64,000 bases of DNA, taken from contig CACKRJ010000002.1 of NCBI GenBank assembly GCA_902602595.1, positions 62,001 to 126,000 of the forward strand, written 5' to 3'. Origin of the DNA: an uncultured SAR86 cluster bacterium. GTDB taxonomy: Bacteria; Pseudomonadota; Gammaproteobacteria; Magnimaribacterales; D2472. The position numbers and the translations under genes were made by a program. The notes beneath the pieces are model-generated. The model worked only from the letters and a program-made list of their open reading frames with translations, had not been told where the DNA came from and searched no databases. Below are positions 17,092-35,243 of the stretch, piece by piece; position 1 is the stretch's first letter; each line of letters starts with the position of its first letter.

Positions 17092-17093
17092 AA

Positions 17094-20000
17094 TTATTCA
17101 CTTGCAGCCATTGGAAATTTATTAACTATATTAATATTATTTCCATAAAATTCATTCAAATATTTCTCTTTAAGTATTTTAGTTGTTTCAATATTTTTCT
17201 CTTTAACTACGTCGTACCCTTTAATTTGTTCTGGCAAGGATGCAATTTTAATTGCAATTTCATAATTATCTATAGAGATATTATCTAAAATTTTTAAAAT
17301 TATATTTTCATATTCAATAATTAAATCTCTTTCAATTTTTCTGTGCTTAGAAAAACCAAATATATCAAAAATAGTTCCTCGCAAGAATTTAAAGTGTTTT
17401 AAGACCTTAAATATATAAAATGTAAATGAAGGCAACTTACGTTTTGGGTATTTTCCAGTGCTTTTATTTCTTCCACCTAAAACTGGTGGAGCAAGCGAGT
17501 ATTCAATTTTGTAATTTCCCTCTAATTTATCATCTAAGTATTCTCTAATTTCATTTCCTGTATGTAATCTTGCTACCTCATATTCATCTTTGTATGACAT
17601 CAATTTAAAAAAATATTTTGCAGCAGCTATAGATAAATCGTCTTTATCATTAGGGATTGATTTATCTTTTGAAATAATTTTATTTACAAATGTATTATAT
17701 CTATTTGCATATTTCGAATCTTGATAGCTTGTTAAAAATTTAGTTCTATCTCTAACGATTGATTCTAATGTTTCAATTTCTTCATTTTGCAAGATATCAT
17801 TTTGAGAGAATGCAACATTTTCAACTTTCTTTATATCTATTGCAGCTAATCTTCCCCAATAAATACTTTCTTTATTCATTTTTATTGAGACCCCATTAAG
17901 TTCTATGGCTCTCTCAATAGCTCTTAATGAAATAGGAAATAATCCTTTTTGTATTGCATAGCCTACTAAAAACAAATTAGCGCCAATAGCATTGCCTATA
18001 AGAGATGAAGATAATTTAGTTGCATTTATAAAATGTATTAATTCTTCAGATCCAGCATCTTTTAGGCCCTTTATCATGCGCGCTGAAGATAGATCTAAGC
18101 TTGGATCACTTGCAAATGAACTAGTTGGTGCTACATGGTTATTGATTACCATATTGGTTCTATTTGGACTAATTTTTGACATAGCCTCAATACCCGTCGT
18201 TACAACAATATCGCATCCAATAATTAAATCAGCAGATCCAGACGCAATTCTTGTTGCATGCAATTCGCTTGGTGAGTTGGAAACTCTAAGATGGCTTGTT
18301 ACGGGACCATTTCTTTGGGCTAGACCAGCAACATCTAATGTTGATGATCCTTTGCCCTCTAGGTGAGCAGCAGTACCTAGAATTGCTCCAAGGGTAATAA
18401 CACCAGAGCCGCCTATGCCTGTAATTAATATATTAAATGGTTTATGGATTTCTGCTGTAGTAGGTTCTGGTAATTTAAATTCCCTGTAATCATGAGAATT
18501 TTCTAGAGAATTAGATTTTTTCCTTAATGTTCCACCAGTAATTGTCAAAAAGCTTGGACAATAGCCTTTAGTGCATGAAAAATCTTTATTACAAGCTGAT
18601 TGATTGATTTGTCTTTTTCTACCAAATCTAGTTTCAAGTGGTTCAATAGCTATGCAATTTGATTCGACGCCACAATCACCACAGCCCTCACAAACTAGAG
18701 GATTAATAAAAATCTTTTTATTGGGCTCCTCGACTAAACCTCTTTTTCTCCTTCTTCTTAATTCAGTTGCACAATACTGATCATAAAGAATAACTGTAAC
18801 TCCTTTAATTTCTCTAAGGCTCTTTTGCACTTCATCTAGTTTGTCTCTTTGAAATACCTCTACACCAGGAGCGAATGTAGCATTTTTAGGATACTTATCT
18901 GGATAATCAGTGACAACAACAACTTTTTTTGCACCCTCAGCATGAACTTGCCAAGTTAAGTCATCAATTCTAACCTTTCCAGTAATTTCTTGGCCACCTG
19001 TCATAGCAATAGCATCATTAACTAATATTTTATATGTAATATTTGCACCCGAGGCAACAGCTGATCTTAAGGCGAGTATACCTGAATGATAATATGTTCC
19101 ATCACCTAAATTTTGAAAAATATGATCAGTCTCAGTAAAGGGAGCAATTCCAGTCCACATAACCCCCTCGCCACCCATCTGACCTAAGTTGTATGTATGT
19201 CTTTCAGGCATAAACGTAGCCATTCCGTGACATCCAATTCCACCAAATGCAAAACTGTCTTCTGGAACTTTTGTAGATGTATTGTGAGGGCAACCTGCAC
19301 AAAAGCTTGGCAATCTAAAAAGATTTGATGCGGGAGATTGATTAATTGATTGGAGAAACTCTTCAATCTCTTTAACTTTTTGTGTTAAATCAATATTTAA
19401 AGAAAGATTTGAAATTCTTTTAGCAATAATTAGCGCTACTAAGCTTGGTGATAGTTCTCCTTCACCAGGCACCAAATAATCTCCATTCTCATCTTTCTTA
19501 CCAACAATCATGGGTCTATTTTTATTGTTATATAGATATTTTATTAATTGGTCCTCAACAATTGGTCTTTTCTCTTCAATTACTAGTAATTCCTTATGGC
19601 CTTTTGAAAAATCTAATATTTTTTTATCATCAAGAGGCCAAACCATTCCTACTTTAAAAAGAGAAATACCGATTTTTCTACATACTTCATCATCAAGACC
19701 TAATTCATCTAAGGCTTGTCTTACATCTAAGTAAGCTTTACCACTAGTAACAATTCCTAGCTTTTTTTTATCTTTAAAAATAACTTTATCTATAGAATTT
19801 GCTCTAGCAAAAGCTTGAGCGGCTGGTAAACGTGTTTTATATAACCTTGGTTCAGATGCAGCAGGAGCAAAACCCCATTGAATATGAATATTCTCATCGC
19901 CTATTGGATCATCTTTTGGTATAACCGGTTTAAATCTATCTAAACTAATATCCACGGACGCAGCACTCTCAACTGTATCAGTTACGCATTTAAATCCAAC

Positions 20001-20822
20001 CCAACAACCAGAATATCTCGACATAGCAAATCCAAGAACACCAAAATCTAAATAATCTTGAACTGTTGATGGATTTAGAATAGGCATTCCAAAATGAATA
20101 AATGCATGATCGCTTTGATGTGCAGTAGTAGAAGATTTTGCACCATGATCATCACCGGCTAATGCTAATACACCTCCATATTTTGAAGTTCCAGCATAAT
20201 TTCCGTGTTTTAGAGCATCACCTGATCTATCTACACCTGGCCCTTTTCCGTACCAAATTCCAAAAACTCCATCGTATTTAGGCTTTTCTACTAGTGTTGT
20301 TTGTTGAGTTCCATGCAGTGCTGTTGCAGCCAAATCTTCATTAATTCCAGGCTGAAAAACAATTTCGTTTTCATCTAAAAAATCTGATGCTTGATTAAGA
20401 GCATGGTCATATCCACCTAAAGGTGATCCAGTGTAACCAGAAATATAACAAGCTGTATTAATACCATTATCTTGATCAATTTTTCTCTGTATTATTGGAA
20501 GCCTTACTAAGGCCTGAGTTCCAGTTAAAAAGACTCGACCCTTATCTAATGAGTATTTATCAGTTAATTTGTAATTAGTGTTTAGTTCTTTTGGAATACT
20601 TTTAATTTTATCTAAAGAGGAAGAAATTTGATGTTTTTTTTGACGATCCCATTCCAGCACAAGTGATATTGCCTTGCTATGATCCTCTGTATCTAATGAT
20701 TTACGATAATATTTACCGTTAATTCTCAAACACCCGTAATATCTTGGACTATCTTTTCTTAAATAAATAGATATACCTTTGGAAATGTTCCAGCTTTTTG
20801 ATTGTCCCTTCATACAATACAC
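17094..20822 (-). CDS. Indolepyruvate ferredoxin oxidoreductase (fused) with ~82-aa atypical N-terminal extension
   Basis: GRVFLTGTQALVRLPIIQR, YISGYTGSPLGGYD, SFCAGCPHNTSTKVPE, GGIGCHGMATFMPERH, CEGCGDCGVESNC, GIGGSGVITLGAILG; extension precedes the usual start region. Confidence 0.9.
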   Translation of the reverse strand: MYCMKGQSKSWNISKGISIYLRKDSPRYYGCLRINGKYYRKSLDTEDHSKAISLVLEWDRQKKHQISSSLDKIKSIPKELNTNYKLTDKYSLDKGRVFLTGTQALVRLPIIQRKIDQDNGINTACYISGYTGSPLGGYDHALNQASDFLDENEIVFQPGINEDLAATALHGTQQTTLVEKPKYDGVFGIWYGKGPGVDRSGDALKHGNYAGTSKYGGVLALAGDDHGAKSSTTAHQSDHAFIHFGMPILNPSTVQDYLDFGVLGFAMSRYSGCWVGFKCVTDTVESAASVDISLDRFKPVIPKDDPIGDENIHIQWGFAPAASEPRLYKTRLPAAQAFARANSIDKVIFKDKKKLGIVTSGKAYLDVRQALDELGLDDEVCRKIGISLFKVGMVWPLDDKKILDFSKGHKELLVIEEKRPIVEDQLIKYLYNNKNRPMIVGKKDENGDYLVPGEGELSPSLVALIIAKRISNLSLNIDLTQKVKEIEEFLQSINQSPASNLFRLPSFCAGCPHNTSTKVPEDSFAFGGIGCHGMATFMPERHTYNLGQMGGEGVMWTGIAPFTETDHIFQNLGDGTYYHSGILALRSAVASGANITYKILVNDAIAMTGGQEITGKVRIDDLTWQVHAEGAKKVVVVTDYPDKYPKNATFAPGVEVFQRDKLDEVQKSLREIKGVTVILYDQYCATELRRRRKRGLVEEPNKKIFINPLVCEGCGDCGVESNCIAIEPLETRFGRKRQINQSACNKDFSCTKGYCPSFLTITGGTLRKKSNSLENSHDYREFKLPEPTTAEIHKPFNILITGIGGSGVITLGAILGTAAHLEGKGSSTLDVAGLAQRNGPVTSHLRVSNSPSELHATRIASGSADLIIGCDIVVTTGIEAMSKISPNRTNMVINNHVAPTSSFASDPSLDLSSARMIKGLKDAGSEELIHFINATKLSSSLIGNAIGANLFLVGYAIQKGLFPISLRAIERAIELNGVSIKMNKESIYWGRLAAIDIKKVENVAFSQNDILQNEEIETLESIVRDRTKFLTSYQDSKYANRYNTFVNKIISKDKSIPNDKDDLSIAAAKYFFKLMSYKDEYEVARLHTGNEIREYLDDKLEGNYKIEYSLAPPVLGGRNKSTGKYPKRKLPSFTFYIFKVLKHFKFLRGTIFDIFGFSKHRKIERDLIIEYENIILKILDNISIDNYEIAIKIASLPEQIKGYDVVKEKNIETTKILKEKYLNEFYGNNINIVNKFPMAASE

Positions 20823-20914
20823 AGTATATATAAGAAAAAGAACTGTGTATATATTTAAGTTTTTTTAATAGACTGTGTATATTAGTAAATAAGGAATATC
20901 GGTTTTTGTGTATA
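20816..20914. repeat. Iterated TGTGTAT(A) motif: one inverted and three direct copies
   Basis: aatacacagt 20816-20825 (inverted), actgtgtata 20842-20851 and 20872-20881, tgtgtata 20907-20914. Confidence 0.75.
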
Positions 20915-20921
20915 TAGAAGT

Positions 20922-21329
20922 TTAAGTTGATTGCATTAATTCTATCAAATTTCCGTCAGGATCTTGAATTAAAGCAACTATTACACCTGGACGAATAGAC
21001 ATGCCAGGATTAATGACTTTTATATTATTTTCATTACAGATATTAATTATTTCATCTAAATTACTTAAGTTGATTGTGATATATCTAATTCCATCTGAAG
21101 TAGAAAAATCACCAATTGGATTTTTATTTGACGGCTTTTTGTCAAGGACTAATACTTTAATAAAGCCAACACCATAAGAAAATTTGTTTACAGTGCCTAA
21201 ACCTGGAAATGGAATCTGTGCTTCATTAGTAAATCCTAATATATTTTTATAAAAATTAAGCATTGAATCTTTGTTTGAGGTAACTATACCTATATCAATA
21301 GCTTTTGATGTAAAGTTAATTCTTTCCAT
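20922..21329 (-). CDS. VOC-family (glyoxalase/dioxygenase superfamily) protein
   Basis: FYKNILGFTNEA...VIVALIQDPDGNLIELMQ. Confidence 0.8.
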   Translation of the reverse strand: MERINFTSKAIDIGIVTSNKDSMLNFYKNILGFTNEAQIPFPGLGTVNKFSYGVGFIKVLVLDKKPSNKNPIGDFSTSDGIRYITINLSNLDEIINICNENNIKVINPGMSIRPGVIVALIQDPDGNLIELMQST

Positions 21330-22308
21330 GATCTGCATTTTCTTCTATTTCAGCGCTAACCTCAGCTATTGAATCCATAATTCCTTGATGACCCCAAATA
21401 TCTCCTTCTACAAATTGTTTAGGTATCCATTTATCGTCATCATGTATATTTAAAGTATCAGCACCGATTTCTATATCCCAGCCATTGGGTCCTTTAATAT
21501 AGACACTTGTAGTTAAATCATTAATATGCTTTCCCAATGTAGAACTTATTGGGATATTTGCATTATTAATCCTATCTAATGCCCTACCAACGCTATCAAT
21601 TGAATCGACCTGAAACATAATATGATGCATTCCATTGGCTTCACCAAATTTTGATAAGGCCATACTATGGTGTCTAGGATTGCAACGCATGAACCAAGCA
21701 CCGTCTCCTCCTTCAAAACTAATGTAATCCGTTAATTTAAAACCAAGGATTTTTGTATAGAAATCATAAGTTTGCTCTCTATTTGCAGTAAGAATCATTA
21801 AATGCCCTAATCCGAGATGTCCAGCTACAAAAGTTTGATTTGGAATTGGAGATTGAAATTTATAATCTAATGTAGGCTCATAATATATTTCAATTGGGTT
21901 ACCTGAGGGATCACTAAATTTAATTAAGCCGCCTACCCCTCTTGACTTAGCGTCTTCATCAGAGCCGTCAAGCACATCAATTTTATTATCTTGTAAGTAT
22001 TTTTTTGCTTCTTCAAGCTTTATTACATTATCAACTTCAAAGCCAATGTATAAAATACCATGATTATTATCATCTTGATGGATGCCAATTCGCCATTGAT
22101 ACTCATCTAGCTTTAAATAGACAGATCCATCATCTGCAATCCCTTTTCCACCACTAGCGATCTCAAAATTTGGATCCTGTGGAAAGCCCCAGCTCTCTCC
22201 TGGAACTGCGCGGGCAGGCATCATACCTATAATTTCTGTGCCAAATTTAAGCCATTCCTGTGGATCTTTTGCACCAAAACCAATATACCCTAAGGACTTA
22301 ATTTCCAT
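21316..22308 (-). CDS. Two-domain type I extradiol dioxygenase-like (BphC/HsaC-type VOC) protein
   Basis: Two VOC repeats; LGLGHLMILT (His), GMHHIMFQV (His), GWDIEIG (Glu) match the 2-His-1-Glu pattern. Confidence 0.82.
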   Translation of the reverse strand: MEIKSLGYIGFGAKDPQEWLKFGTEIIGMMPARAVPGESWGFPQDPNFEIASGGKGIADDGSVYLKLDEYQWRIGIHQDDNNHGILYIGFEVDNVIKLEEAKKYLQDNKIDVLDGSDEDAKSRGVGGLIKFSDPSGNPIEIYYEPTLDYKFQSPIPNQTFVAGHLGLGHLMILTANREQTYDFYTKILGFKLTDYISFEGGDGAWFMRCNPRHHSMALSKFGEANGMHHIMFQVDSIDSVGRALDRINNANIPISSTLGKHINDLTTSVYIKGPNGWDIEIGADTLNIHDDDKWIPKQFVEGDIWGHQGIMDSIAEVSAEIEENADHGKN

Positions 22309-22338
22309 GATTTTTTACTCCCTTAAATCATCACCTAT

Positions 22339-23058
22339 TTACAAGTGTTTTAATAAGTTTCTTTCGTTATTTATAGCATTTTGTACATTTTCTTCCAAAT
22401 TTAGTTGAAATGCTTTTTTTGCTGCGATTAAAGCATTAATTTTAATATCATCAAATGATGAGGAAATATTAGAGACAGTATCTTCTAGTAAATCATTTTC
22501 AACGACTTGGTTGACTAATCCAATATCCTTTGCCTCAGTAGCAGATAATTTAGCGTTAGTTAATATTATTTCTTTAGCTTTATTTTTACCTACTAGTAAA
22601 GGTAAATAATAAGTGCTAGCTAAACCGGGCAAAATACCAAGCTTGATAAATGGAAATGATATAGATGAGTTAATTGTGGCAACCCTGATATCGAAAGGCA
22701 GAACCATAGTTATTCCTATCCCTACACATGAACCATGAAGCCCAGCTATTAGTACTTTGGTAGATTGAGACAGTTCTAATACAAAAGATTTTATAAACTC
22801 ATCCTCACCAATTTTTAAACCAGATTTACTGAGCTTATTTCCAATTAAATATTCTTTATCTGCTCCAGCGCAAAAAGACTTACCGTTACCAAAAATACTG
22901 ATAACTTTAATAGCGTTATCAGCATTTACTTTTCTGAATGCATCAATTATTTCATCACCCATATCAGGTGTATAAGCATTAAGTTTCTCAGGCCTATCTA
23001 GATAAATCTTTGCTAAGGAATTATCAATTATTAATTTAATATTCTCGTAATTATTCAT
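22339..23058 (-). CDS. Enoyl-CoA hydratase/isomerase family protein
   Basis: LDRPEKLNAYTPDM, GKSFCAGADKEYL, LHGSCVGIGITMVLPFDIRVA, FPFIKLGILPGLAST; start chosen at MNNYENIK. Confidence 0.85.
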   Translation of the reverse strand: MNNYENIKLIIDNSLAKIYLDRPEKLNAYTPDMGDEIIDAFRKVNADNAIKVISIFGNGKSFCAGADKEYLIGNKLSKSGLKIGEDEFIKSFVLELSQSTKVLIAGLHGSCVGIGITMVLPFDIRVATINSSISFPFIKLGILPGLASTYYLPLLVGKNKAKEIILTNAKLSATEAKDIGLVNQVVENDLLEDTVSNISSSFDDIKINALIAAKKAFQLNLEENVQNAINNERNLLKHL

Positions 23059-23845
23059 TATTTTTATAAGGCGCCCAATTAGGAGATCTTTTTTCAATAA
23101 ATGCCTTTGTTCCCTCTTTAAAGTCTGCATGAGTTTGCTGTTCTGTGATTATGTCCCATGCATTATTTAGAGCTTGTGTAAGACCAGTTTCAGTAGAATC
23201 CCAAATAGCTTTTTTAGTTTTAGCTAATGCTGATGGTGAATGAATCTTAATTTTATTAGCTATTTCAATCGCCCTATTCATTAAGTTACTTTCTTTAACT
23301 ATTTCACTGATTAAGCCAATATTTTTTGCTTCAACTGCATCAATTCTTTCAGACCCTCCCATTAGAGACATTCTTAAAACTCTCTCAAATGGAATCTTCC
23401 TGCTAAGACTTACGGGTTCTAAGCCAGCAACCATTCCAACTTTTACATGAGTATCAAAAAATGTTGATTTCTCTGTAGCAATCACAATATCGCTATCCGC
23501 TATAAAATGCAGACCTCCACCACAGGCCATTCCACTTACTGCGCAGATTACCGGTTTCCAAATTTTGTTTTGTAATGAAGTCCATTTAATTGATTCAATT
23601 GTTGATTTTCCAATATCACCATCCATATCAGGCAAATCATCTAAATCAGCACCGGCACAAAATGACTTGGTCCCATGATTAGATAAAATCGCAACAATTG
23701 CAGAATTATCCTCATTAAAAAGTTTCCATGCTTTGGGTAATTCATTTGACATAGTCGAATTTACAGCATTTAAGTGCTCTGGTCTGTTTAGTAAAATGCT
23801 GGCAATACCATCTTTTACTTCATAATCAATCGTTGAAAATTTCAA
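23051..23845 (-). CDS. Enoyl-CoA hydratase/isomerase family protein
   Basis: LNRPEHLNAVNSTM, SFCAGADLDDLP, VSGMACGGGLHFIADSDIVIA. Confidence 0.87.
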   Translation of the reverse strand: MKFSTIDYEVKDGIASILLNRPEHLNAVNSTMSNELPKAWKLFNEDNSAIVAILSNHGTKSFCAGADLDDLPDMDGDIGKSTIESIKWTSLQNKIWKPVICAVSGMACGGGLHFIADSDIVIATEKSTFFDTHVKVGMVAGLEPVSLSRKIPFERVLRMSLMGGSERIDAVEAKNIGLISEIVKESNLMNRAIEIANKIKIHSPSALAKTKKAIWDSTETGLTQALNNAWDIITEQQTHADFKEGTKAFIEKRSPNWAPYKNNE

Positions 23846-24974
23846 ATGGCACCTCTGAGTTAGTTAAAAAAAATTTTTTTTCTATTTGATTTTCAAGATA
23901 AGGCTCATCCCACATATAATTTTGTAGATGTTTGGCTCTTTTAAAAAATAATTGTGGATCAGCTTCAACAGTAAAGCCCATGCCACCATAAATTTGAATA
24001 GTGGTTGCTGCTATTTCTCTGAATGACCTACAAGCTTGAAGTTTTGACAATGCAGATAATGATGAAATATCCTTTTTTTCATCAAATGACCAAGCCGCTT
24101 GATATGTCATCAATTTATTAGCCTCAACTTCAACATATCCATCTGCTAAATAATGTGCAATAGATTGAAAAGAACCAATTTTTTGACCAAATGCTTCTCT
24201 CTCAAGAGAATAGTCTCTACCAATATATAAAGACCTTTCAGAACCACCTGATGCTTCTGCTGCAATCAGTATTTGACTTAGGGAAGCAATTTCTTCCCAA
24301 ATCTCCCAGAAATTTGATTTTTGCATTAGATTATCTTTATCAATCTCAACTTTCTTAAAAATTACCTCATATAAACTTGTTTTAGCATGGTTCTCTTGGT
24401 AATTAAAAGTTAACCCTGGATGATCTGTATCAATTATTGCAGCACCAATATTAGAACTATCTCTAAATAAAATAATAATTTTATTAGCTTGAGAAGCATA
24501 TGGAACCATGTGTTTTTTACCAGTAACATAATATTTATTGCTTTTTTTAGTAAGTGTTAAGTTAATACCCTCTTTATAGAATGAAGAGCCTTCTTCCAAC
24601 CAAGCCAATGAGGCTATTAATTCACCAGAAGCTATCCCAGTAAGAATTTCTTTCTTTTGTTTGCTTGTGCCTAATTTATTTATTAAAGATGCACATATAA
24701 CTGAACTTACCAAATGGGGTGATAAAGACAAAGCACGGCCAAATTCTTCATAAACAATTACTTGGTCTAGCAAACCCATTTCTGATCCTCCAAATTTAGT
24801 AGGTATATTAATTCCGGTTAACCCAAGGTTTTTTAATTGTGCCCAGAATTGATCAGAGTAGCCTTTTTTTGTATCTTCAATATCTCTTAAAGTCTTTAAA
24901 TCAGAATTATCAATACATATTTTTTCAATAGTATTTCTAAGCAATATTTGTTCTTCTGAAAATTGAAGTTCCAC
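23826..24974 (-). CDS. Acyl-CoA dehydrogenase family protein
   Basis: FGGSEMGLLDQVIVYEEFGRAL, YSLEREAFGQKIGSFQSIAHYLAD, TIQIYGGMGFT. Confidence 0.87.
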   Translation of the reverse strand: MELQFSEEQILLRNTIEKICIDNSDLKTLRDIEDTKKGYSDQFWAQLKNLGLTGINIPTKFGGSEMGLLDQVIVYEEFGRALSLSPHLVSSVICASLINKLGTSKQKKEILTGIASGELIASLAWLEEGSSFYKEGINLTLTKKSNKYYVTGKKHMVPYASQANKIIILFRDSSNIGAAIIDTDHPGLTFNYQENHAKTSLYEVIFKKVEIDKDNLMQKSNFWEIWEEIASLSQILIAAEASGGSERSLYIGRDYSLEREAFGQKIGSFQSIAHYLADGYVEVEANKLMTYQAAWSFDEKKDISSLSALSKLQACRSFREIAATTIQIYGGMGFTVEADPQLFFKRAKHLQNYMWDEPYLENQIEKKFFLTNSEVPFEIFND

Positions 24975-25048
24975 TTATATCTAATTATTATTTCTAAATA
25001 AGACTTTTATATTAAACTTTGGGTATTTGTAAGGCAATAAATAGAAAT

Positions 25049-25489
25049 ATGAATAATGATGTAACTGAAATTAAAGATAAGCTTATTGCTTATGCAAATT
25101 CATTAGATACTAGGAAATGGAGTATTTTAAAAGATATTTTCCATAAAGAAGCTACAGCTGAATATGGCGATGATTCAATTGGTATTAAATTTAATTCATC
25201 ATCTAGAGATGAGATTATTAAAATGTGTCAATCAAATTTAAATGGATGTGGATTTACACAACATTTATTAGGAAATTTTAAAATAGAAATTAATAAAAAT
25301 TCAGCAACAAGCCAATGCTATGTTAGGGTTTATCATATAGGCCAAAAGCCTAATGAAAAAGAATTTTATGAGATGTTTGGTGAATATATTGATGAGTGGA
25401 AAAACATCAATAATTCATGGTGTATCATTCATAGAAAACTCAAAGTTAATTACGAAAGAGGTAATAGAGATAAAGTTTTAGCTCCATAA
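25049..25489 (+). CDS. SnoaL/NTF2-like protein
   Basis: IKDKLIAYANSLDTRKWSILKDIFHKEATAEYGD; NTF2-like pattern; start MNNDVTE. Confidence 0.65.
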   Translation: MNNDVTEIKDKLIAYANSLDTRKWSILKDIFHKEATAEYGDDSIGIKFNSSSRDEIIKMCQSNLNGCGFTQHLLGNFKIEINKNSATSQCYVRVYHIGQKPNEKEFYEMFGEYIDEWKNINNSWCIIHRKLKVNYERGNRDKVLAP

Positions 25490-25491
25490 AT

Positions 25492-26679
25492 ATGAATTTT
25501 AATTTTACTAAAGAAGAAGAATTGTTTGTTGAAGAAGTTAAAAACTTCATCAAAGAAGAAAAGAAGAAATCTAATGCAGACGATGTATTTGCTCCAAATA
25601 GAGAAGCAGATGCTCAAACCAAAATAGACAGCCCTGCTAGAAGAGAGTTTATGAAAATACTTTCATCAAAAGGCTATCTAGGCATGTCATGGCCAAAAGA
25701 ATATGGCGGTAAAGAAAAACCTGGAATTTATGATTATATTTTAAATGAAGAATTATGCAGAGTTGGAGCACCTTCTCCAGGCAAAGGCGTTGGATCAATA
25801 GGACAAACAATAATTCATCATGGGTCTAACAGAATAAAAGATGAATTTTTACCTCAAATTTTAGCTGGTGAAATTGATTTTGCATTGGGCTATAGCGAAC
25901 CAGGTGCAGGGTCAGATTTAGCCTCTTTAAAACTAAAAGCTGAAAAAAAGGATGGTGGCTGGTTGATTAATGGTCAAAAAATCTGGACTTCATCTGCTCA
26001 TGTCGCAGATTGGTATTGGTTGGCAGCAAGAACGGATCCAGAAGCCCCTAAGCATAAAGGAATAAGCGTGTTTTTAGTTAAAATGGATGATCCAGGTATT
26101 GAAGTACATCCAATTGAAACTGTTGGAGAGCATGCAACAAATAGTGTTTTTTTAACTGATGTTTTCATTGCTGATGAATATGTTATTGGAGATGTTAATA
26201 ACGGCTGGAAATATATTTGTGAAGCATTAAATTACGAACGATTTACTTTCTATACCATTGCACCTTTAGAGCAAAAATTTAAAGAGCTGGTTGAACTTAT
26301 CAATAAATTATCAAGAGATGGAACTCCATTGAATAAAATCCCTGAAATACGCAAGAAAATTATATATCTTTATGCAGATGTCCAAAAAGCCAAAGTTCTC
26401 CAAAGAAAAGTACTATCTGTTGCCATTCAAGATGAAGTACCTCAAACAGAAGCAGCTGTTTTTAAACTATTCAGTACAAAACTACATCAAAAATTAGCTA
26501 ATGAGGCAATGGATATATTAGGTAGAGAAGGTCTTTTTAGAAAGGAGTGTCAAGATTCACATGCTAATGGAAAATGGGAATGGTCATACCGCAGTACATT
26601 GGTAGATACTATTGGAGCTGGAACAACAGAAATTCAAAAAAATACAATAGCTAAAAAATCTTTAAATCTTCCTTTGTAA
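25492..26679 (+). CDS. Acyl-CoA dehydrogenase family protein
   Basis: YGGKEKPGIYDYILNEELCRVGAPSPG, FALGYSEPGAGSDLASL, DTIGAGTTEIQKNTIAKKSL. Confidence 0.9.
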   Translation: MNFNFTKEEELFVEEVKNFIKEEKKKSNADDVFAPNREADAQTKIDSPARREFMKILSSKGYLGMSWPKEYGGKEKPGIYDYILNEELCRVGAPSPGKGVGSIGQTIIHHGSNRIKDEFLPQILAGEIDFALGYSEPGAGSDLASLKLKAEKKDGGWLINGQKIWTSSAHVADWYWLAARTDPEAPKHKGISVFLVKMDDPGIEVHPIETVGEHATNSVFLTDVFIADEYVIGDVNNGWKYICEALNYERFTFYTIAPLEQKFKELVELINKLSRDGTPLNKIPEIRKKIIYLYADVQKAKVLQRKVLSVAIQDEVPQTEAAVFKLFSTKLHQKLANEAMDILGREGLFRKECQDSHANGKWEWSYRSTLVDTIGAGTTEIQKNTIAKKSLNLPL

Positions 26680-26685
26680 ATAATA

Positions 26686-27189
26686 ATGCAAGCTGAATTG
26701 CCTAAAGAAATAACAAAACTAATTGGCAAAATATCATTTGAAGATTCGAGCCCTATTTTAGTTCAAAAAGGGCTTTGGCAAAACTTTTGTTCAGCTATTG
26801 AAGATAGTAATCCTATTTATTGGAATGAATCAGAAGCCATTAAACATGCTAACGAGTTAATAGCCCACCCAGCATTACTACCTTCATGGACTCATGATTT
26901 TGAATGGCATCCTAATCGAAAAAAAGTTCTGCCCATGCAACTTCATTTCCATTTAAAAGAAGTTTTAAATTTACCACTTGGAATAGTTACAGAAGTTGAA
27001 ATTGAATACTATGAGCCTATTAAAAATGGTGATGAAATTAGCTCTAATCAAAAATTATTAAGTATTTCTGAACCGGTAACAACTAAACTTGGAAATGGAA
27101 GATATTGGGTTATAGAAGTTACCTATTTTAACCAAAGGGAAATTATTGTAGGAAAACAAAACATGCATTTTTTAGGTTATAAAAAATGA
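26686..27189 (+). CDS. MaoC-like hot-dog protein, putatively non-catalytic half (ChsH2 N-domain-like)
   Basis: AIEDSNPIYWNESEAIKHANELIAHPALLPSW; Tyr where the D-x4-H motif has His. Confidence 0.72.
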   Translation: MQAELPKEITKLIGKISFEDSSPILVQKGLWQNFCSAIEDSNPIYWNESEAIKHANELIAHPALLPSWTHDFEWHPNRKKVLPMQLHFHLKEVLNLPLGIVTEVEIEYYEPIKNGDEISSNQKLLSISEPVTTKLGNGRYWVIEVTYFNQREIIVGKQNMHFLGYKK

Positions 27190-27671
27190 GTTCTAATATT
27201 ACTTTACCTATTAGTAAATTTGTTACATCAGTGAAAAATATACAGGCTGGTGCTATTTATAGTCGAGATTGGGCCCCGCTTCATTCAGATCAAGACTGGG
27301 CTATTAATAAAGGCAATTTACCAAACATAATTATGAATAATTACACATTAAATGGTTTGGTAATAAAGTATGTTACTGATCTTTATGGAGATGCGACAAG
27401 GATTGGCAAAGTTAGTTTCAAGATTAAAAAACCTATATGCCCAAACGAAACATTAGAATTTCATGGATCTATAATTAGTGAAGATAAGGTTTCAGAGGAA
27501 TTATCATTCTTAAATATCAATTTAGATATAAAAATATCTGATCAAATTGTTTCATCTGCAAAAATTATTACAGGGGTTAATTTAACTGAAAAAAAATTAA
27601 ATTCTCCATGGAAGATAGATTCTAAAACATGGAAATCTTACATAGATGAAGTGACAACCAAAAAATCTTAA
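27186..27671 (+). CDS. MaoC-like enoyl-CoA hydratase (ChsH1-like)
   Basis: AIYSRDWAPLHSDQDWAINKG contains D-x4-H hydratase-2 motif; overlaps previous gene by 4 nt. Confidence 0.72.
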   Translation: MSSNITLPISKFVTSVKNIQAGAIYSRDWAPLHSDQDWAINKGNLPNIIMNNYTLNGLVIKYVTDLYGDATRIGKVSFKIKKPICPNETLEFHGSIISEDKVSEELSFLNINLDIKISDQIVSSAKIITGVNLTEKKLNSPWKIDSKTWKSYIDEVTTKKS

Positions 27672-27761
27672 TCGTAATTTTTCTGTATCTTTAGAAATTG
27701 CAAAGTATTAATATATACCGACAGACTTTCCTTAGTAAGTTTTCTGATTGATGACACCACT

Positions 27762-28955
27762 TTAAAACTTAATCGGCATATTTCTATAGCCCTGTAAAAA
27801 TTCACCGAATGTTCTTACCATTTCATTATGTTGAAGTGAGTATTCAGGAATGGCTTTAAATATTTCTTCTAAAATGACCCTGCCTTCTAATCTTGCTAAG
27901 TGCTGACCCAAACATTTATGTGGACCATGCCCAAAACTGATAGTTCGCTTGGGAGTAGTTCTGGTAATATTAAATTTATCAGGATTATCGAATTCTCTCT
28001 CATCTCTTCCAGCCGATTGATACAAAAAAATTACAGAGTCACCTTTTTTCATCTTTTTACCATGTAATTCCATATCTTTATTTAGTTTTCTACCTAAAAT
28101 GTTAGTAGGATGATCAAACCTAACCGTCTCTTCGAAAGCTGCAGGTATTAATGACGGATCATTTTTTAAAATCTCTTGTTGATCTGGATTTTGATCAAGA
28201 TAATAAAATAAGTTTGCAATCGTATAAGGAACCGTATCAGCGCCAGTAATTATCAACATACTTGTGTTTCCCATAATCTGCTCATCTGACATCCACAAGC
28301 CCTCTCTTACTTGTTTTGTGATCCATGAATTTATATGAGTAGGAGAAGGAGGTGTATCTTTTCTCCATTCAGATGCTAGCTGCAACATTAGACCCATGCA
28401 CTGGCCAAATGCTTCTTGACCTCTAGGAGTAACACCCATGACATCAGGATCTCTCTCATAAAAAATATCAATCAATTCTCTTGCTTTTAAAGCTATATCT
28501 CTTTCCAAACCTATCATGTCGGTAATGGTGAATAATGAGACCTTTCTTGCAATTTCATGAACATCAATCTCACCTTTTTTTAAACCTGGCTCAAGTTCTT
28601 TTATTGTTAGTTGTCTAATTTTATCCTCAAGCTCTGAAACTGAAGATTGAGTATATCTATCGGCAATAGTATTTCTGTAATCTCTGTGGTCTGCACCATC
28701 ATTTGTCGGGATTGAGATATGACCCGGACCAGAATCATCGCCCAATAGTAATGGGGGTGGAGAAGTTCCCTCAATAGATGTGTAGTCTTTATATGATCCT
28801 AAGTGAGCATTCCATATGTCTTCAAATCTACTTAGTGCCCATGCCCCACCAAAATCTTCCATACAGTGAACAGGATCATTATCTCTAAGATCTTTGTAGA
28901 TATTCCAAGAATCGTCCCAAAAATCTTTTGAATATGGATTGTAATTAATTTTCAT
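27762..28955 (-). CDS. Cytochrome P450
   Basis: ITGADTVPYTIANLF I-helix, EETVRFDHPT (ExxR), FGHGPHKCLGQHLARLEGRVILEEI heme-binding. Confidence 0.95.
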   Translation of the reverse strand: MKINYNPYSKDFWDDSWNIYKDLRDNDPVHCMEDFGGAWALSRFEDIWNAHLGSYKDYTSIEGTSPPPLLLGDDSGPGHISIPTNDGADHRDYRNTIADRYTQSSVSELEDKIRQLTIKELEPGLKKGEIDVHEIARKVSLFTITDMIGLERDIALKARELIDIFYERDPDVMGVTPRGQEAFGQCMGLMLQLASEWRKDTPPSPTHINSWITKQVREGLWMSDEQIMGNTSMLIITGADTVPYTIANLFYYLDQNPDQQEILKNDPSLIPAAFEETVRFDHPTNILGRKLNKDMELHGKKMKKGDSVIFLYQSAGRDEREFDNPDKFNITRTTPKRTISFGHGPHKCLGQHLARLEGRVILEEIFKAIPEYSLQHNEMVRTFGEFLQGYRNMPIKF

Positions 28956-28988
28956 ATCACCACTCCCCTTGATGTAATTAAATATTAA

Positions 28989-29402
28989 TTATTCTCTTAC
29001 CCAATAAGGTAAAGATATTTCATTGTTAATTTTTTTAAATCTAACAGTTAATTTATCACCTATCTTAATGGAATCTATATCTGAGTTAGATTTTATTTCT
29101 CCAATAATTCTTATATTTTTATATTCAATTAATTCAACCAAACCAACTACATATGGAGATTGTTTTTCAAATACTGGTAGAAGTGGTGGTCTAGGAACTA
29201 CAAATGACCAAAGAATTGCATCACCCGAAACAATATTCCACTCATGGTTAATAGACTGACATTTAGGGCACATATGTCTAGGAGGAAATCTTGGTGCTTT
29301 ACAATCAGCACAATGCTGAATGCTTAATTTATGTTTTGAAGAATTTTCCCAATAGGATTTATCAAAATCTTCAATGCCGGGAATTGGAATAGATTTAATC
29401 AT
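28989..29402 (-). CDS. DUF35/OB-fold zinc-ribbon acyl-CoA-associated protein
   Basis: CADCKAPRFPPRHMCPKCQS zinc ribbon + OB-fold tail; adjacent to thiolase-fold gene. Confidence 0.85.
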   Translation of the reverse strand: MIKSIPIPGIEDFDKSYWENSSKHKLSIQHCADCKAPRFPPRHMCPKCQSINHEWNIVSGDAILWSFVVPRPPLLPVFEKQSPYVVGLVELIEYKNIRIIGEIKSNSDIDSIKIGDKLTVRFKKINNEISLPYWVRE

Positions 29403-30551
29403 TTATTCACCCTTTAATAATACTGCTGCATTTGGAGTTGCATCGCAAGTTGTTACCAAAGCCAATTTAGCATTTTTAATTTGTACATTAGCCAAGCCAC
29501 GAATTTGTTTAACTCCCTCAGTAACTAAATTCATCCCATGAAGATAAACCTCTGAGAGGCTTCCTCCTGAGGTATTCACAGGAAGGCCACCATCAACATC
29601 AATCAAACCTTCATTAATTAACTTCAATGCCTCACCCTTTGGACAAAAATCATATGCTTCCAGAGAAAATGGAATCATTGGGGAAAATGCATCATATATT
29701 TGAGCAACATCAACATCTTTAGGGGAATAATCAGATAAGCTCCATAAATTAGAGGCTGTTACATATGAAGAGCTTTCAAGGGGATCGTCGCTATGATAGT
29801 GAGTCATTAGCTGATGATCTCTACTCATTCCTTGTGAATATGAGTGAATGATAGCTGGTATATTATTTAGACTTTCGGCCATTTTTACACTTGTAATAAC
29901 AATCGCAATTGCGCCATCACTCTCTAGACAATTATCAAATAAACAAAGAGGATCTGAAATCATTCTAGCATTCATATAATCACTTAAACTAAGGGATTTG
30001 TTATGCATTAGAGCACGTTCGTTGGAGTTGGCGTACTTTCTTAAAGCAATAGATACACTTGCAAGATCTTTTCTATCATAATTATATTGATGCATATATC
30101 TTCTCATTAGCATAGAAGATTCATCGACTGGCCTAACCAAACCCGATGGTCTAGACCATTTCCAATGATCAAAGATTTGTTCATTTGTATGAGACCACAT
30201 TCTAGAACTAGGATCGCCTCTTTTACGTGATCTCCAAACAACTCCTACATTGGCTACCCCTGAGGCAATTGCCATAGCAACTTGACCAATAGCAGCACAA
30301 CTTGCCCCACCTCCATAGGGCGCTTGACTCCAATAGGTTAAATTTCCAAAACCTAAATTTCTTGCAATCTCAAATTCAGGTGTCTCCTCATAGGTAAAAC
30401 TGCCTAATGCATCAACTTGATCAGGATTAATACCAGCATCATCCAACGCAATTTTAATTGCTTTACAGGCAAGGTTTAGTTCTGTTGAATCAATTGATTT
30501 TGAGAATTCGGTTTCCCCAATTCCCACTATTGCTGTTTGATCTTTCAGCAT
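29403..30551 (-). CDS. Thiolase-superfamily lipid-transfer protein, Ltp2-like aldolase candidate
   Basis: YGGGASCAAIGQVAMAIASG, YDAFSPMIPFSLEAYDFCPKGEAL, LPVNTSGGSLSEVYLHGMNLVTEGVKQIRG; lacks the GHPxG motif. Confidence 0.82.
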   Translation of the reverse strand: MLKDQTAIVGIGETEFSKSIDSTELNLACKAIKIALDDAGINPDQVDALGSFTYEETPEFEIARNLGFGNLTYWSQAPYGGGASCAAIGQVAMAIASGVANVGVVWRSRKRGDPSSRMWSHTNEQIFDHWKWSRPSGLVRPVDESSMLMRRYMHQYNYDRKDLASVSIALRKYANSNERALMHNKSLSLSDYMNARMISDPLCLFDNCLESDGAIAIVITSVKMAESLNNIPAIIHSYSQGMSRDHQLMTHYHSDDPLESSSYVTASNLWSLSDYSPKDVDVAQIYDAFSPMIPFSLEAYDFCPKGEALKLINEGLIDVDGGLPVNTSGGSLSEVYLHGMNLVTEGVKQIRGLANVQIKNAKLALVTTCDATPNAAVLLKGE

Positions 30552-30557
30552 AAATAA

Positions 30558-31724
30558 CTATTTAGGTAAATTTAATCTATTGGCAATATTATTTTTTTGA
30601 ATTGCAGATGAGCCACCTAATATCGGCATAGCTAACATATCACGAACATATCTTTCCATATCAAAGTCTCTAACATATCCATAAGCACCTAATATTCTTT
30701 GACATGTTAAAACTATTTCTAAGGCTGTTTCAGTTACAAAGAGTTTTGACATTGACATTTCAACTGTAGCTGTAACATTTTGATCAGCAAGCCATGCGCC
30801 TTGATATGTCATTAATCTACATGCCTCTAGTTTTGTTTTAACTTCAGCAAGCATATGTCTTACAGATTGGTTATGGCATATAGGTTTACCAAATTGAATT
30901 CTTTCTTGCGAATATTGCCACGCATCATCAACAGCTGCTCTTGCAATACCTAATGCCATTGCTGAGACCTCAATTTTCTCTACATCTAAGCCTGTGCTTA
31001 CAATCTTGCTCCATCCATTATTCCAACCCTCTTCTCCTCCTATTACATTATCAAAAGGTATTTTTACATCATTAAAAGTTACATCACAGGTGCCTCCAAC
31101 ACCCTTTTGTCCAAGAGTTTGTTGGGGTTCTATTATTATTCCATCAGATTTAGGGGGTATTAATACTAAAGAAAGATTTCTGTATCTATCTTCCTCTGGC
31201 CCAGATTTAACAATTGTATAAATATAGTCTGTAACATTTGGTCCAGAGCACCACCGTTTAGTTCCATTGATCACAACTTTATCGCCATCTCTAACAGCTT
31301 TAGTTTTAACACTAGCTACATCTGCTCCAACATCAGGTTCACTAATTCCATATGAGAATAACAGATTACCTTTTGCAACTTCTGGAAGAAATTTTTGTTT
31401 TTGCTCTTCACTAGCAACTTCAGAAATGTTCAGTCCTGCATAACATGCACAAAAAATATACCCTGAAGCAATACCAAGGCTTCTAGTGCATAGCTCTTCA
31501 ATTGTAGCTATTGTTGCCATTACGTCTCTGCCTGAGCCGCCATATTCTGAAGGAACCGTTACGGAGGTAACTCCTAATTCACATAATTTATCAAAAACAT
31601 CTCTTGGAAAATAATCATCCTTATCCCATTGATTCACTTTATCTCTAGGCATTTCCTTTTCAATAAATTGCCTAAGAGTATGTCTTAACATAGTGATATG
31701 TTCTGGCTCTTGAAATGCATTCAT
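30558..31724 (-). CDS. Acyl-CoA dehydrogenase family protein
   Basis: YGGSGRDVMATIATIEELC, SYGISEPDVGADVASVKTKA, QRILGAYGYVRDFDMERYVRDM. Confidence 0.9.
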   Translation of the reverse strand: MNAFQEPEHITMLRHTLRQFIEKEMPRDKVNQWDKDDYFPRDVFDKLCELGVTSVTVPSEYGGSGRDVMATIATIEELCTRSLGIASGYIFCACYAGLNISEVASEEQKQKFLPEVAKGNLLFSYGISEPDVGADVASVKTKAVRDGDKVVINGTKRWCSGPNVTDYIYTIVKSGPEEDRYRNLSLVLIPPKSDGIIIEPQQTLGQKGVGGTCDVTFNDVKIPFDNVIGGEEGWNNGWSKIVSTGLDVEKIEVSAMALGIARAAVDDAWQYSQERIQFGKPICHNQSVRHMLAEVKTKLEACRLMTYQGAWLADQNVTATVEMSMSKLFVTETALEIVLTCQRILGAYGYVRDFDMERYVRDMLAMPILGGSSAIQKNNIANRLNLPK

Positions 31725-32425
31725 GTTTCTTGAATGCCTAGATTTGCATGAATTACAGAACCATTAACAACAGAATTATTTGCGCAGAAAAATAATGTCT
31801 TAGCTATTTCCTCTGAAGTAATTAATCTATTTTCACTTAAAGTAGAAGCCATAACTTTTAAGGCTTCCTGATTACCTTGGACATATTCAACCAACATTTC
31901 TGTTTCAGTGGCTCCTGGACATATACATGCTGTATGAATAAATCTTCCAAATAAGTCCTGACATGTACTTCTCATGAGACCTATCATCCCATGTTTTGTC
32001 ATTACGTATGATGACATATGTGGAACTGCTTTTTCAGATAAGGTTGAGCCTACATAGAGAATCGATGAACCTTTATTCATGAATGGAATAGTAATTTTAT
32101 TTAAAATTGAAGGACTCACTAAGTTAACTTCTATTACCTCTCTTAAGTCATTATTGTTAAATGATTCAACTGTGTCACTTTGCATCTTACTTGCATTATG
32201 TATGAGGCAAATTTTATCAGCTGATGAAAGGAGGTCTTTAAAATTTGATTCTAATGATTTTTGCCAATTTGAAGTCGATAAATCAACCTCAAAATGTATT
32301 GCTTTATCTAAATTTATACTTGATCTTGAAAGATTAATAATTTCAAAACCATCATCTTTAAAAATTTTTGCTGTAGCAAATCCTATTCCACTGCTTCCAC
32401 CAGTAATAATAAGAAATTTTTTCAA
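31721..32425 (-). CDS. Short-chain dehydrogenase/reductase; likely TTG start
   Basis: IITGGSSGIGFATAKIF, NAS, SSYVMTKHGMIGLM (Y-x3-K), CPGATETEM; TTG at 32423-32425 after GGTGG-like RBS. Confidence 0.82.
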   Translation of the reverse strand: MKKFLIITGGSSGIGFATAKIFKDDGFEIINLSRSSINLDKAIHFEVDLSTSNWQKSLESNFKDLLSSADKICLIHNASKMQSDTVESFNNNDLREVIEVNLVSPSILNKITIPFMNKGSSILYVGSTLSEKAVPHMSSYVMTKHGMIGLMRSTCQDLFGRFIHTACICPGATETEMLVEYVQGNQEALKVMASTLSENRLITSEEIAKTLFFCANNSVVNGSVIHANLGIQET

Positions 32426-32438
32426 AGAACCACCTTGA

Positions 32439-33233
32439 TTATTTTTGTTTAAATTTAGGAGTTTCTTTTTTTGCAAAGGCTTCTAGTGCAATTTTATGAT
32501 CTTCCATTAATTGAGTAACATTTTCAAAAGCTGCTGCTCTATCTATTATTGAATTAGCCATAACTTTCAAACCAGCGTTAATAGAAGTTTTAGTCCAGCG
32601 AATAGAATATTTAGCTCCATCACGAAGCTTTTCAGCTAAAGCTTGGACTTCTTGATCAATTTTATCCTCTTCAATGACTTCTGCGATAAGTCCCATACTA
32701 AGCGCATCACCTGCTTTAATCATCTCACCCGTTAAAAGGTACTTCTTAGCTCGTGCGAAACCTATAAGCTGTGGCCATATAACACAACCACCATCACCTG
32801 CAACTAGTCCAACTGAGACATGAGGATCTGCAAATTTTGATCTTGGGGTAGCATATACAAAATCACAAAAAAGAGCCAAAGAACAACCTAGACCAACAGC
32901 TGGGCCATTTACTTTGGCAATAATTGGTTTCTCCATATCCAACATGGCATTTTGAATCTTTCTATCATGATTTATATGATATGCAGTTGCTACAGGATCG
33001 CCATGAACTCCCAGTAACCATTTTAAATCCCCGCCGGCACAAAATGATTTGCCTGCTCCTGTAAGAATAACGATATCAACCTCATCATCATATTCAGCAT
33101 CAATGAATATAGTTGAAAAATCAGCATGTAGTTGCTCATTAACAGCATTCATATCATTTGGGCGATTGATAGTAATGGTTAAAATCTTATTTTCTTTAGT
33201 TATTTTAAGTTCTTTATATTTTGAATAATCCAT
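32439..33233 (-). CDS. Enoyl-CoA hydratase family protein
   Basis: INRPNDMNAVNEQL, GKSFCAGGDLKWL, VNGPAVGLGCSLALFCDFVYATPRSKFADPHVSVGLVAGDGG. Confidence 0.9.
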   Translation of the reverse strand: MDYSKYKELKITKENKILTITINRPNDMNAVNEQLHADFSTIFIDAEYDDEVDIVILTGAGKSFCAGGDLKWLLGVHGDPVATAYHINHDRKIQNAMLDMEKPIIAKVNGPAVGLGCSLALFCDFVYATPRSKFADPHVSVGLVAGDGGCVIWPQLIGFARAKKYLLTGEMIKAGDALSMGLIAEVIEEDKIDQEVQALAEKLRDGAKYSIRWTKTSINAGLKVMANSIIDRAAAFENVTQLMEDHKIALEAFAKKETPKFKQK

Positions 33234-33265
33234 AAAATTAATTATAAACAGCTTCGTAGAAATTA

Positions 33266-34879
33266 CTAATCAAGATTTAAATCCTGAATGTATTTCTCTT
33301 GTAATTTGTATTTTTGTATTTTTCCTGACGGAGTTATTGGAAAAGAATCAACAAAAAAAATGTATTTTGGAACCTTCCATCTTGATATTCTCTCTTTACA
33401 CCAGTTTCGTAGCTCATCAGGGTTATTTAGTTTTGTTGCATCTACCCTAGCAACTGCGCAGCATTCCTCATCATATTTTTTATCGGGAAGGCCAATAACA
33501 GCTACCTCTAATACTCCGGGATGTTCAAGTAAGTAATTTTCTATCTCTATTGGATAAAGATTTTCTCCTCCTCGAATTATCATCTCTTTTGCTCGCCCAA
33601 CTATATTTATATAACCCTCTTCATTCATAGTAGCCAGATCTCCAGTTGGAAACCAACCATCATCATTTATTCCAGAGCTTCCATCAGGTAAATTACCATA
33701 TCCTTTCATAAGCCCAGGACCTTTATATAGCAATTCACCTGGCGTATTATTTTCAACAATTTCATTATTTTTATCTACAACTCTCAAGGAAACGCCTGGT
33801 AGTGCAAGTCCAGCAATGGCTTTTAATTCAGGAGGATCACTTGGAAGTGCAGTAGAAGTTAATCCACATGTTTCTGTCATACCATAGCCATTGATAACAT
33901 CTGCTTCAAACTCTTCAGAGAATTTTTTTAAAAGCTCAAGTGGTGGATTGGATCCGCCTACTATTAGGCATTTTAAACTGCTCAAATCATATTCATGAAA
34001 ATTGGGAACTTCTAACATTGCTGTTAATAAAACAGGAGCTCCTATAAATACTGAGCATTTTTCATTTTGAAGGATATTTAGTGTGACATCTGGTTTAAAA
34101 ATATATAAAGGTAACGAAACAGCTCCGGTTGCTGCGGCTCCTAGTGTCATACAAGCTGAGCCACCTATATGAAAGAGTGGAAAACCGTGACAAACTCTTT
34201 GATTTGATTTTATTTGCCAACGGACATGGCTATTTTTTGAAGATGTAATTAATGCTTGATGGGTCATCTGAGCAGCCTTTGGTAGTCCAGTTGTCCCAGA
34301 GGTATACTGAATCATAAAAATATCATTTGGATCAACTATTGGCAGTGAAGAATTTGAGGCTTCCCCTTTTTTTATAAGACTTTTTAAACCCTCATTAAAT
34401 GAATAGCTGTGCTTTAGAGATGAAATTTTATTTCTTATTGTATTGATTACATCTAGACATTTAATATCGCCTATAGCTTCAGCATGAACTATGGCTACTG
34501 CCGAAACTGTATTTAAAGCAAAAATTAATTCTTGTTCTTTGTAAAGTGGGTTTAAAGTGACGATTCGCAGACCTGCTTTAGCCAAAGCATATTCAGTAAG
34601 AATCCATTCAGGATGGTTGGGACCCCATACACCAACTGTATCGCCTTGATTAAATCCAGCATCAATAAAAGCTTTAGCAAGATTAGTAGACATTTCATTA
34701 AGATGTTTATAAGTCCATCTAACATCTTCAACATCAGGTTGATTTGAATAAACTAATGCTTCAGTTTCTGGAAATTTTGCAGCAGTTGATTCAATGAGTT
34801 CACCTAAGCTAATAGACATAAGTTCAGAATCATCTAAATGGTCAACCCATTCAGATAAATTTAAATTTGGTTTAGACAT
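33266..34879 (-). CDS. AMP-binding acyl-CoA ligase
   Basis: IQYTSGTTGLPKAAQMTH, NGYGMTETCGLT, GDLATMNEEGYINIVGRAKEMIIRGGENLYPIEIE, PSGKIQKYKL. Confidence 0.93.
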   Translation of the reverse strand: MSKPNLNLSEWVDHLDDSELMSISLGELIESTAAKFPETEALVYSNQPDVEDVRWTYKHLNEMSTNLAKAFIDAGFNQGDTVGVWGPNHPEWILTEYALAKAGLRIVTLNPLYKEQELIFALNTVSAVAIVHAEAIGDIKCLDVINTIRNKISSLKHSYSFNEGLKSLIKKGEASNSSLPIVDPNDIFMIQYTSGTTGLPKAAQMTHQALITSSKNSHVRWQIKSNQRVCHGFPLFHIGGSACMTLGAAATGAVSLPLYIFKPDVTLNILQNEKCSVFIGAPVLLTAMLEVPNFHEYDLSSLKCLIVGGSNPPLELLKKFSEEFEADVINGYGMTETCGLTSTALPSDPPELKAIAGLALPGVSLRVVDKNNEIVENNTPGELLYKGPGLMKGYGNLPDGSSGINDDGWFPTGDLATMNEEGYINIVGRAKEMIIRGGENLYPIEIENYLLEHPGVLEVAVIGLPDKKYDEECCAVARVDATKLNNPDELRNWCKERISRWKVPKYIFFVDSFPITPSGKIQKYKLQEKYIQDLNLD

Positions 34880-34883
34880 TAAT

Positions 34884-35174: not shown

Positions 35175-35243
35175 TTGATGCCCCTATTCAGATTAGTTAA
35201 TATAAAATCAACTAATATTCAATTTTTAAACATAAAAACAAAT

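Follow-up and report, generated by a model that had tools for sequence, protein, structure and literature searches.

A probable edc/oec-type (4,5-seco estrogen-degradation) island in a SAR86 gammaproteobacterium

Which part of a steroid would a marine gammaproteobacterium attack with a gene set resembling the igr operon of Mycobacterium tuberculosis? The question is raised by a stretch of 64,000 nucleotides (the window; positions 62001-126000 of contig CACKRJ010000002.1, here C2) from an uncultured SAR86 cluster bacterium (GCA_902602595.1, here G000; assembly of 1.35 Mb, 82.8% complete), in which a preliminary description had recognized acyl-CoA dehydrogenases (ACADs), a MaoC pair, a cytochrome P450, a DUF35 protein, and an Ltp2-like thiolase-fold protein, and had read them as a module for degrading the side chain of a sterol or another isoprenoid. 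Our search of open reading frames (ORFs) and domains recovered every ORF named there, at the same coordinates and with the same domains. Left out were a third ACAD, two crotonases, a VOC-family protein, an extradiol dioxygenase, and an indolepyruvate-type 2-oxoacid:ferredoxin oxidoreductase (IOR); past the ACAD gene at 23826, the block continues on the same strand with two crotonases, the dioxygenase, the VOC protein, the IOR, and then a thiolase. From homology, orthology, synteny, and conserved active-site residues, we conclude that positions 15943-35666 probably constitute a catabolic island of the edc/oec kind, which would act on the rings of a phenolic steroid.

The aerobic 4,5-seco estrogen pathway is represented by the edc clusters of Novosphingobium/Caenibius tardaugens, MH-B5, and ES2-1, as well as by oec cluster II of Sphingomonas KC8. 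The N. tardaugens cluster comprises genes for a P450 (edcA), a chsH2-like protein, a lipid-transfer protein (LTP), crotonases, a thiolase, a 3-hydroxy-3-methylglutaryl-CoA (HMG-CoA)-synthase-like protein, and dehydrogenases, with a second operon for a dioxygenase (edcB), a VOC protein, an IOR (edcC), an ACAD, two MaoC hydratases, and a TonB receptor (PMC7793797). The SAR86 island shares with these systems an EdcA-type P450, an EdcB-type dioxygenase, an EdcC-type IOR (the last with moderate support, 84/80), a VOC protein, two ACADs, a MaoC pair, a stand-alone DUF35, an edc-type Ltp2-like aldolase, and two crotonases. Reciprocal best hits run across the block to the estrogen degrader Croceicoccus (Altererythrobacter) estronivorus MH-B5 (aldolase, 62%; IOR, 55%; ACAD a subunit, 55%; dioxygenase, 51%), whose record NZ_JRQQ01000001.1, returned as the 62% aldolase match, is named as an estrogen cluster (PMC7793797), and to the estradiol degrader Novosphingobium ES2-1 (PMC8281962), the best plasmid match, whose plasmid p3 holds the full set. 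Further reciprocal best hits lie in similar clusters of Halioglobus BC5_1, Haliea, Spongiibacter, and Sphingomonas colocasiae, and three sub-orders recur, namely LTP-DUF35-P450, ACADa-MaoC1-MaoC2, and IOR-VOC-dioxygenase. The Halioglobus strain (loci L014, L065, and L066) has a name matching that of sponge isolate BC51, which reportedly grows on cholesterol (PMC5790920), such that cholesterol growth and edc-like genes may coexist in it.

Phylogenies likewise place the SAR86 genes with edc rather than igr. The SAR86 aldolase falls inside a 15-member edc-type clade (support, 100/100), with the igr-type aldolases (Nocardia, Nonomuraea) and the ES2-1 side-chain copy forming a separate clade; forcing the SAR86 and igr-type aldolases together costs 207 log-likelihood units and is rejected (approximately unbiased test, p-AU 4e-86). 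Trees of ACAD a, ACAD b, and MaoC1 also group SAR86 with edc genes, apart from igr. The P450, for which CYP125 had been suggested as the counterpart, instead joins the P450s of MH-B5, ES2-1, and Prescottella equi DSSKP-R-001 in a 100/100 clade, outside which stands the one CYP125 sequence in the tree, an inferred ancestor; its best plasmid matches come from ES2-1 and P. equi DSSKP-R-001, each of which reportedly degrades estrogens. Assignment to CYP125 from the top phmmer match in the PDB (the CYP125 ancestor) was rejected, since the estrogen-cluster P450 of MH-B5 shares that match, which is thus not discriminating. The dioxygenase retains its likely metal ligands (H169, H229, and E280), carries an ~20-residue insertion that is shared with edc dioxygenases and missing from HsaC-like ones, and is 46-51% identical to the former versus 36% to the latter.

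The aldolase active site provides a further signature. In TcLtp2, the Tyr of the YDHF motif acts as the base, its His provides an oxyanion hole, and Tyr344 serves as the acid (PMC12329534). The igr-type aldolases carry YDHF, whereas SAR86 and every member of the edc clade carry YDAF with the second Tyr kept. YDAF also occurs in two Myxococcota/deltaproteobacterial sequences (L021 and L022) that fall on the tree's igr side; the motif alone therefore does not define the edc clade. The NCBIfam model PRK07855 was discarded as an igr marker, as igr-type and edc aldolases both match it (707, 660, 525, and 478 bits, the last being the SAR86 protein, against a cut-off of 469). Because orthology, synteny, trees, and active-site signature all point to the edc kind, the proposed role in removing a sterol side chain at C17 is not upheld.

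What stands of the preliminary description is its enzymatic inventory: phylogeny moves the parts outside igr and so removes the pathway claim, leaving the mechanism unrefuted. The closest solved relatives are Ltp2 for the aldolase (6ok1_A; E 3e-79, 270 bits), the DUF35 partners 9myr_B and 6ok1_B for the DUF35 protein, ChsH1/ChsH2 (weak matches) for the MaoC pair, and the steroid ACAD subunit Tcur3483 (6wy8_B, 238 bits) for ACAD a, with ACAD b nearest to generic ACADs and Tcur3481 reaching 98 bits against it. The D-x4-H dyad is retained in MaoC2, MaoC1 looks like the inert half of ChsH2, and the DUF35 protein keeps its four zinc-ribbon cysteines; Glu249 in the NYERF motif of ACAD a is presumably the base. 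Judged by sequence, a heteromeric ACAD and a heteromeric MaoC with a DUF35/Ltp2-like partner are thus predicted, in support of a two-subunit ACAD, a two-subunit MaoC hydratase, and a retro-aldolase of DUF35 and thiolase-fold subunits. The M. tuberculosis igr operon (cyp125-fadE28-fadE29-chsH2-chsH1-ltp2) has the ACAD heteromer, MaoC pair, DUF35, and Ltp2-like protein in common with SAR86, and the two sets likely share a dehydrogenate-hydrate-retro-aldol logic; they differ in their aldolase, ACAD, MaoC1, and P450 clades, and SAR86 has YDAF, an unfused DUF35, and ring-cleavage genes alongside. The proteobacterial Shy/Sal module for bile-acid side chains also pairs a thiolase-fold aldolase with a DUF35 domain. 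Against the SAR86 aldolase, however, the Sal-annotated chain 9myr_A, which we take to be CtSal, scores 87 bits compared to 270 for Ltp2. Moreover, Sal has YDCY, with Gln at the second Tyr position (PMC12329534).

As the preliminary description had noted, MaoC and DUF35 are on separate polypeptides in a nonactinobacterial context; the genes lie on opposite strands, and the island has no fused ChsH2. In edc clusters, the two are as a rule encoded separately (PMC7793797), and at least one locus on a Rhodococcus plasmid shows this too, whereas the fusion is typical of side-chain modules. A Comamonas mutant with the halves expressed separately kept both hydratase and aldolase activity (PMC12502768); a split enzyme can therefore work. 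ES2-1 has both forms on one plasmid, p3, where a P450 and an edc-type dioxygenase adjoin a side-chain module in which MaoC and DUF35 are fused and the aldolase has YDHF (L083, 18025-26929) and the split-form edc set is also found, providing a natural side-by-side comparison.

The pathway that we propose would run as follows: (i) the P450 would hydroxylate a steroid with a phenolic A-ring, for example estrone, at C4, (ii) the extradiol dioxygenase would cut ring A between C4 and C5, and (iii) the IOR would oxidatively decarboxylate the meta-cleavage product to a CoA ester. These three reactions (4-hydroxylation, 4,5-cleavage, and oxidative decarboxylation to the CoA ester) have been demonstrated for edcA, edcB, and edcC (PMC7793797), and we infer that SAR86 carries them out on such a substrate. 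(iv) Crotonases, a short-chain dehydrogenase/reductase (SDR), an ACAD, and a thiolase, by putative gene assignment, would then trim back the arm derived from ring A and break ring B open, which would leave a two-carbon CoA arm on ring-C carbon C9. (v) This arm would be dehydrogenated by ACADa/b, hydrated to a tertiary alcohol by MaoC1/2, and cleaved in a retro-aldol reaction by LTP-DUF35, yielding acetyl-CoA and the C9 ring ketone of methylhexahydroindanedione propionate (HIP), with the C9-C10 carbon assignment proposed by analogy with igr at C17. Since the β-carbon of the C9 arm would be a tertiary ring carbon, as at C17 in igr substrates, the usual oxidation to the ketone and thiolysis would be impossible; C-C cleavage would thus explain the presence of an igr-like set in estrogen clusters. 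(vi) The breakdown of HIP would then fall to enzymes of the FadD3/IpdAB type, whose genes are on a different contig. In the literature, the later steps to HIP have only been proposed, and include an aldolase (PMC7793797, PMC12507874).

The island measures 19.7 kb, with outer bounds deduced from a syntenic SAR86 genome (G080) in which the flanking genes keep the same order (cyclase at 35678, 88%; symporter at 13284, 87%; peptidase at 10416, 92%) without 15943-35666 between them. Most of its genes overlap or stand a few bases apart. Other SAR86 genomes show this arrangement too (L007-L010), and so it is not due to chance. Loci of matching order come from SAR86 assemblies with thiolase-fold proteins 95% and 85% identical and from a 74% relative, which assigns the window to SAR86. 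In one SAR86 genome, the locus (L009, 12748-13989) has an extra, distant P450 (23% identity) inserted beside the edc-type P450. Dioxygenase and aldolase were detected in the same 7 of 200 SAR86-order genomes, which makes the island a patchy trait. Its G+C content (33.5%) equals that of the flanks, such that composition gives no sign of transfer.

The remainder of a steroid pathway is encoded elsewhere in the genome. A C/D-ring (HIP) locus on contig C1 (13809-34360; L106-L107) has FadD3 (681 bits; cut-off, 657), IpdA (56%), IpdB, IpdC, EchA20 (64%), and FadE30-like genes, together with HsaC-, HsaD-, and HsaE-like genes, and contig C11 (7643-11613; L109) has HsaA-, KshA-, and KstD-like genes side by side. 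All 10 SAR86 genomes examined for IpdA and IpdC homologues had both, whether or not they carried the island. KshA is strongly matched in 6/7 island genomes versus 1/193 others (Fisher p 6e-10, which overstates independence given the relatedness of the genomes). Two more adjacent ACAD pairs, ~30 kb from the island (C2, 41598-43918 and 50033-52368; L086), are possibly steroid side-chain dehydrogenases. Steroid degradation in SAR86 had been predicted earlier, without estrogens (PMC4810484, PMC11582366); steroids are a subject of the 2024 study of SAR86 genomes and estrogens are not (PMC11582366), and SAR86 goes unmentioned in a 2025 review on the degradation of estrogens (PMC12507874).

Several observations weigh against the edc assignment. 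The P450 is just 30-34% identical to those of MH-B5 and ES2-1, the MaoC2 tree is less decisive than the others, and so is that of the IOR, which, taken alone, carries little weight because general homologues reach 45-48% identity. The thiolase at 15943 is only 32% identical to the edc thiolase of ES2-1 and is thus not its counterpart. An EdcT-like TonB receptor, a TetR (edcR) regulator, and an HMG-CoA-synthase-like gene are absent from the island (EdcT was not searched for elsewhere in the genome). Lastly, estrogens are scarce in the open ocean; the natural substrate may therefore differ. The main uncertainty would thus concern the substrate, in view of the P450 identity and of the transporter, the regulator, and the one edc gene not found in the island. 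Cluster make-up does vary among estrogen degraders (PMC7793797), and EdcT, the regulator, and the HMG-CoA-synthase-like gene are accessory features.

It is accordingly possible, if rather unlikely, that the island degrades another phenolic substrate by the same chemistry, either a naturally occurring marine steroid with an aromatic A-ring or a different polycyclic phenol, a proposal that overlaps the edc assignment and differs from it in substrate only. Divergence from the enzymes of proven estrogen clusters is greatest in the P450 and MaoC, the host lives in the open ocean, and a thiolase/DUF35b pair stands in place of the edc thiolase and HMG-CoA-synthase-like gene; the HIP pathway in the genome and the KshA co-occurrence (with its p value inflated by relatedness) argue instead for true steroids. 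In a more novel reading, which we advance tentatively and do not favour, YDAF aldolases would be a distinct subfamily making the hitherto unassigned, HIP-forming C-C cleavage of the ring-B remnant in 4,5-seco degradation, whereby igr side-chain chemistry would be put to new use on the steroid nucleus, and some SAR86 lineages would use it on a natural marine phenolic steroid rather than on a vertebrate estrogen.

Far less probable is a role for the dioxygenase in the 9,10-seco androgen pathway (as HsaC/TesB), with the block as a general steroid-nucleus cluster. Both HsaC and BphC models match the dioxygenase and the island co-occurs with KshA; those model scores, rejected as a discriminator, cannot separate edc dioxygenases from HsaC, and the insertion and identities described above place the enzyme with edc. 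Furthermore, the C/D-ring locus has an HsaC-like gene of its own (C1, 33446-34360; HsaC, 252 bits), and no part in the 9,10-seco pathway is known for an IOR. Least probable, by a little, is an igr-type module in which a CYP125-like P450 would begin side-chain oxidation and the C17 side chain of a sterol or bile acid would lose its last C3, for although the best PDB matches (Ltp2, ChsH1/ChsH2, Tcur3483, and the CYP125 ancestor), the PRK07855 score, and the annotation of side-chain and cyp125 genes in SAR86 (PMC11582366) are in its favour, the aldolase clade and YDAF motif, the position of the P450 outside CYP125, the lack of a fused ChsH2, and a dioxygenase and IOR that play no part in side-chain removal all speak against it.

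Table 1. Genes of the SAR86 island, in window coordinates.
Feature	Position	Strand	Basis
SCP2-type thiolase; probable partner of DUF35b (35175)	15943..17091	-	Thiolase_C_1, 127 bits
IOR, EdcC-like	17094..20822	-	NCBIfam PRK13030, 1545 bits
VOC-family protein, counterpart of EGO55_13575	20922..21338	-	Glyoxalase domain; reciprocal best hit in edc clusters
Extradiol dioxygenase, EdcB/OecC-like, BphC/HsaC type	21316..22308	-	51% to MH-B5
Crotonase 1; uncertain start, 80-bp overlap of ORF with next gene	22339..23130	-	
Crotonase 2	23051..23845	-	51% to MH-B5
ACAD b subunit, without usual catalytic Glu position	23826..24974	-	Sequence, tree
SnoaL_4/NTF2-like small protein	25019..25489	+	Domain match
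ACAD a subunit	25492..26679	+	Best PDB match 6wy8_B, 238 bits; 55% to MH-B5; tree
MaoC1, ChsH2-MaoC-like, apparently catalytically inert	26686..27189	+	Sequence
MaoC2, ChsH1-like, hydratase dyad D28/H33	27186..27671	+	Sequence
P450, edc/EdcA-type clade, haem Cys348	27762..28955	-	Tree
Stand-alone DUF35, zinc ribbon (C31, C34, C45, C48) and OB fold	28989..29402	-	zf-ChsH2 and OB_ChsH2_C
Ltp2-like retro-aldolase (predicted), Y286-D-A-F and Y336 conserved	29403..30551	-	Thiolase_C_1; PRK07855
Third ACAD	30558..31724	-	60% to MH-B5 protein near its estrogen cluster
SDR dehydrogenase	31721..32476	-	42-45% to SDRs in marine edc-like clusters
Crotonase 3	32439..33233	-	67% to MH-B5 protein, which adjoins ligase counterpart there
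Acyl-CoA ligase	33266..34879	-	47% to MH-B5
Second DUF35/OB protein, DUF35b	35175..35666	+	OB_ChsH2_C, 58.6 bits; 47% to Hyphomonas protein adjoining 15943-type thiolase

Certain gene models merit comment (Table 1). The PRK13030 match of the IOR, which is 55% identical to the MH-B5 cluster protein, begins at residue 79, and the true start probably lies ~75 codons inside the ORF. ACAD b would be a FadE28-like partner subunit. The MaoC ORFs overlap by 4 bp, and domain searches returned FAS1_DH_region (32.6 bits) and MaoC_dehydratas (29.5 bits) for the pair, beside which ES2-1 also has an NTF2-family gene. At opposite edges of the island, the SCP2-type thiolase and DUF35b resemble a pair that is adjacent in Hyphomonas (63% and 47%, respectively), and probably form one two-subunit thiolase. 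Treating the third ACAD, crotonase 3, and the ligase as unrelated neighbours was rejected, as all three fall within the island bounds and are matched by genes close to other edc-like clusters. Relative to edc/oec clusters, the SAR86 island thus differs in having the SCP2-type thiolase and DUF35b in place of the usual thiolase, in its extra ACAD, crotonase, SDR, and ligase, in its missing receptor, regulator, and HMG-CoA-synthase-like gene, and in its host.

Ultimately, the kind of cluster is known and its host unexpected; what appears new, as predicted from sequence, is an edc-type island in SAR86 together with an aldolase signature that would make an orphan step testable. The YDAF/YDHF split is of help in separating Ltp2-like enzymes that degrade rings from those that degrade side chains, two groups pooled by the current family model PRK07855, and it suggests a testable function for an orphan set of genes in estrogen degradation. 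SAR86 bacteria are among the most abundant in the surface ocean. If correct, our assignment of a 4,5-seco island to them would mean that the breakdown of aromatic steroids, known from sewage and soil isolates, reaches streamlined plankton as well, and would leave one asking which phenolic steroid seawater provides.

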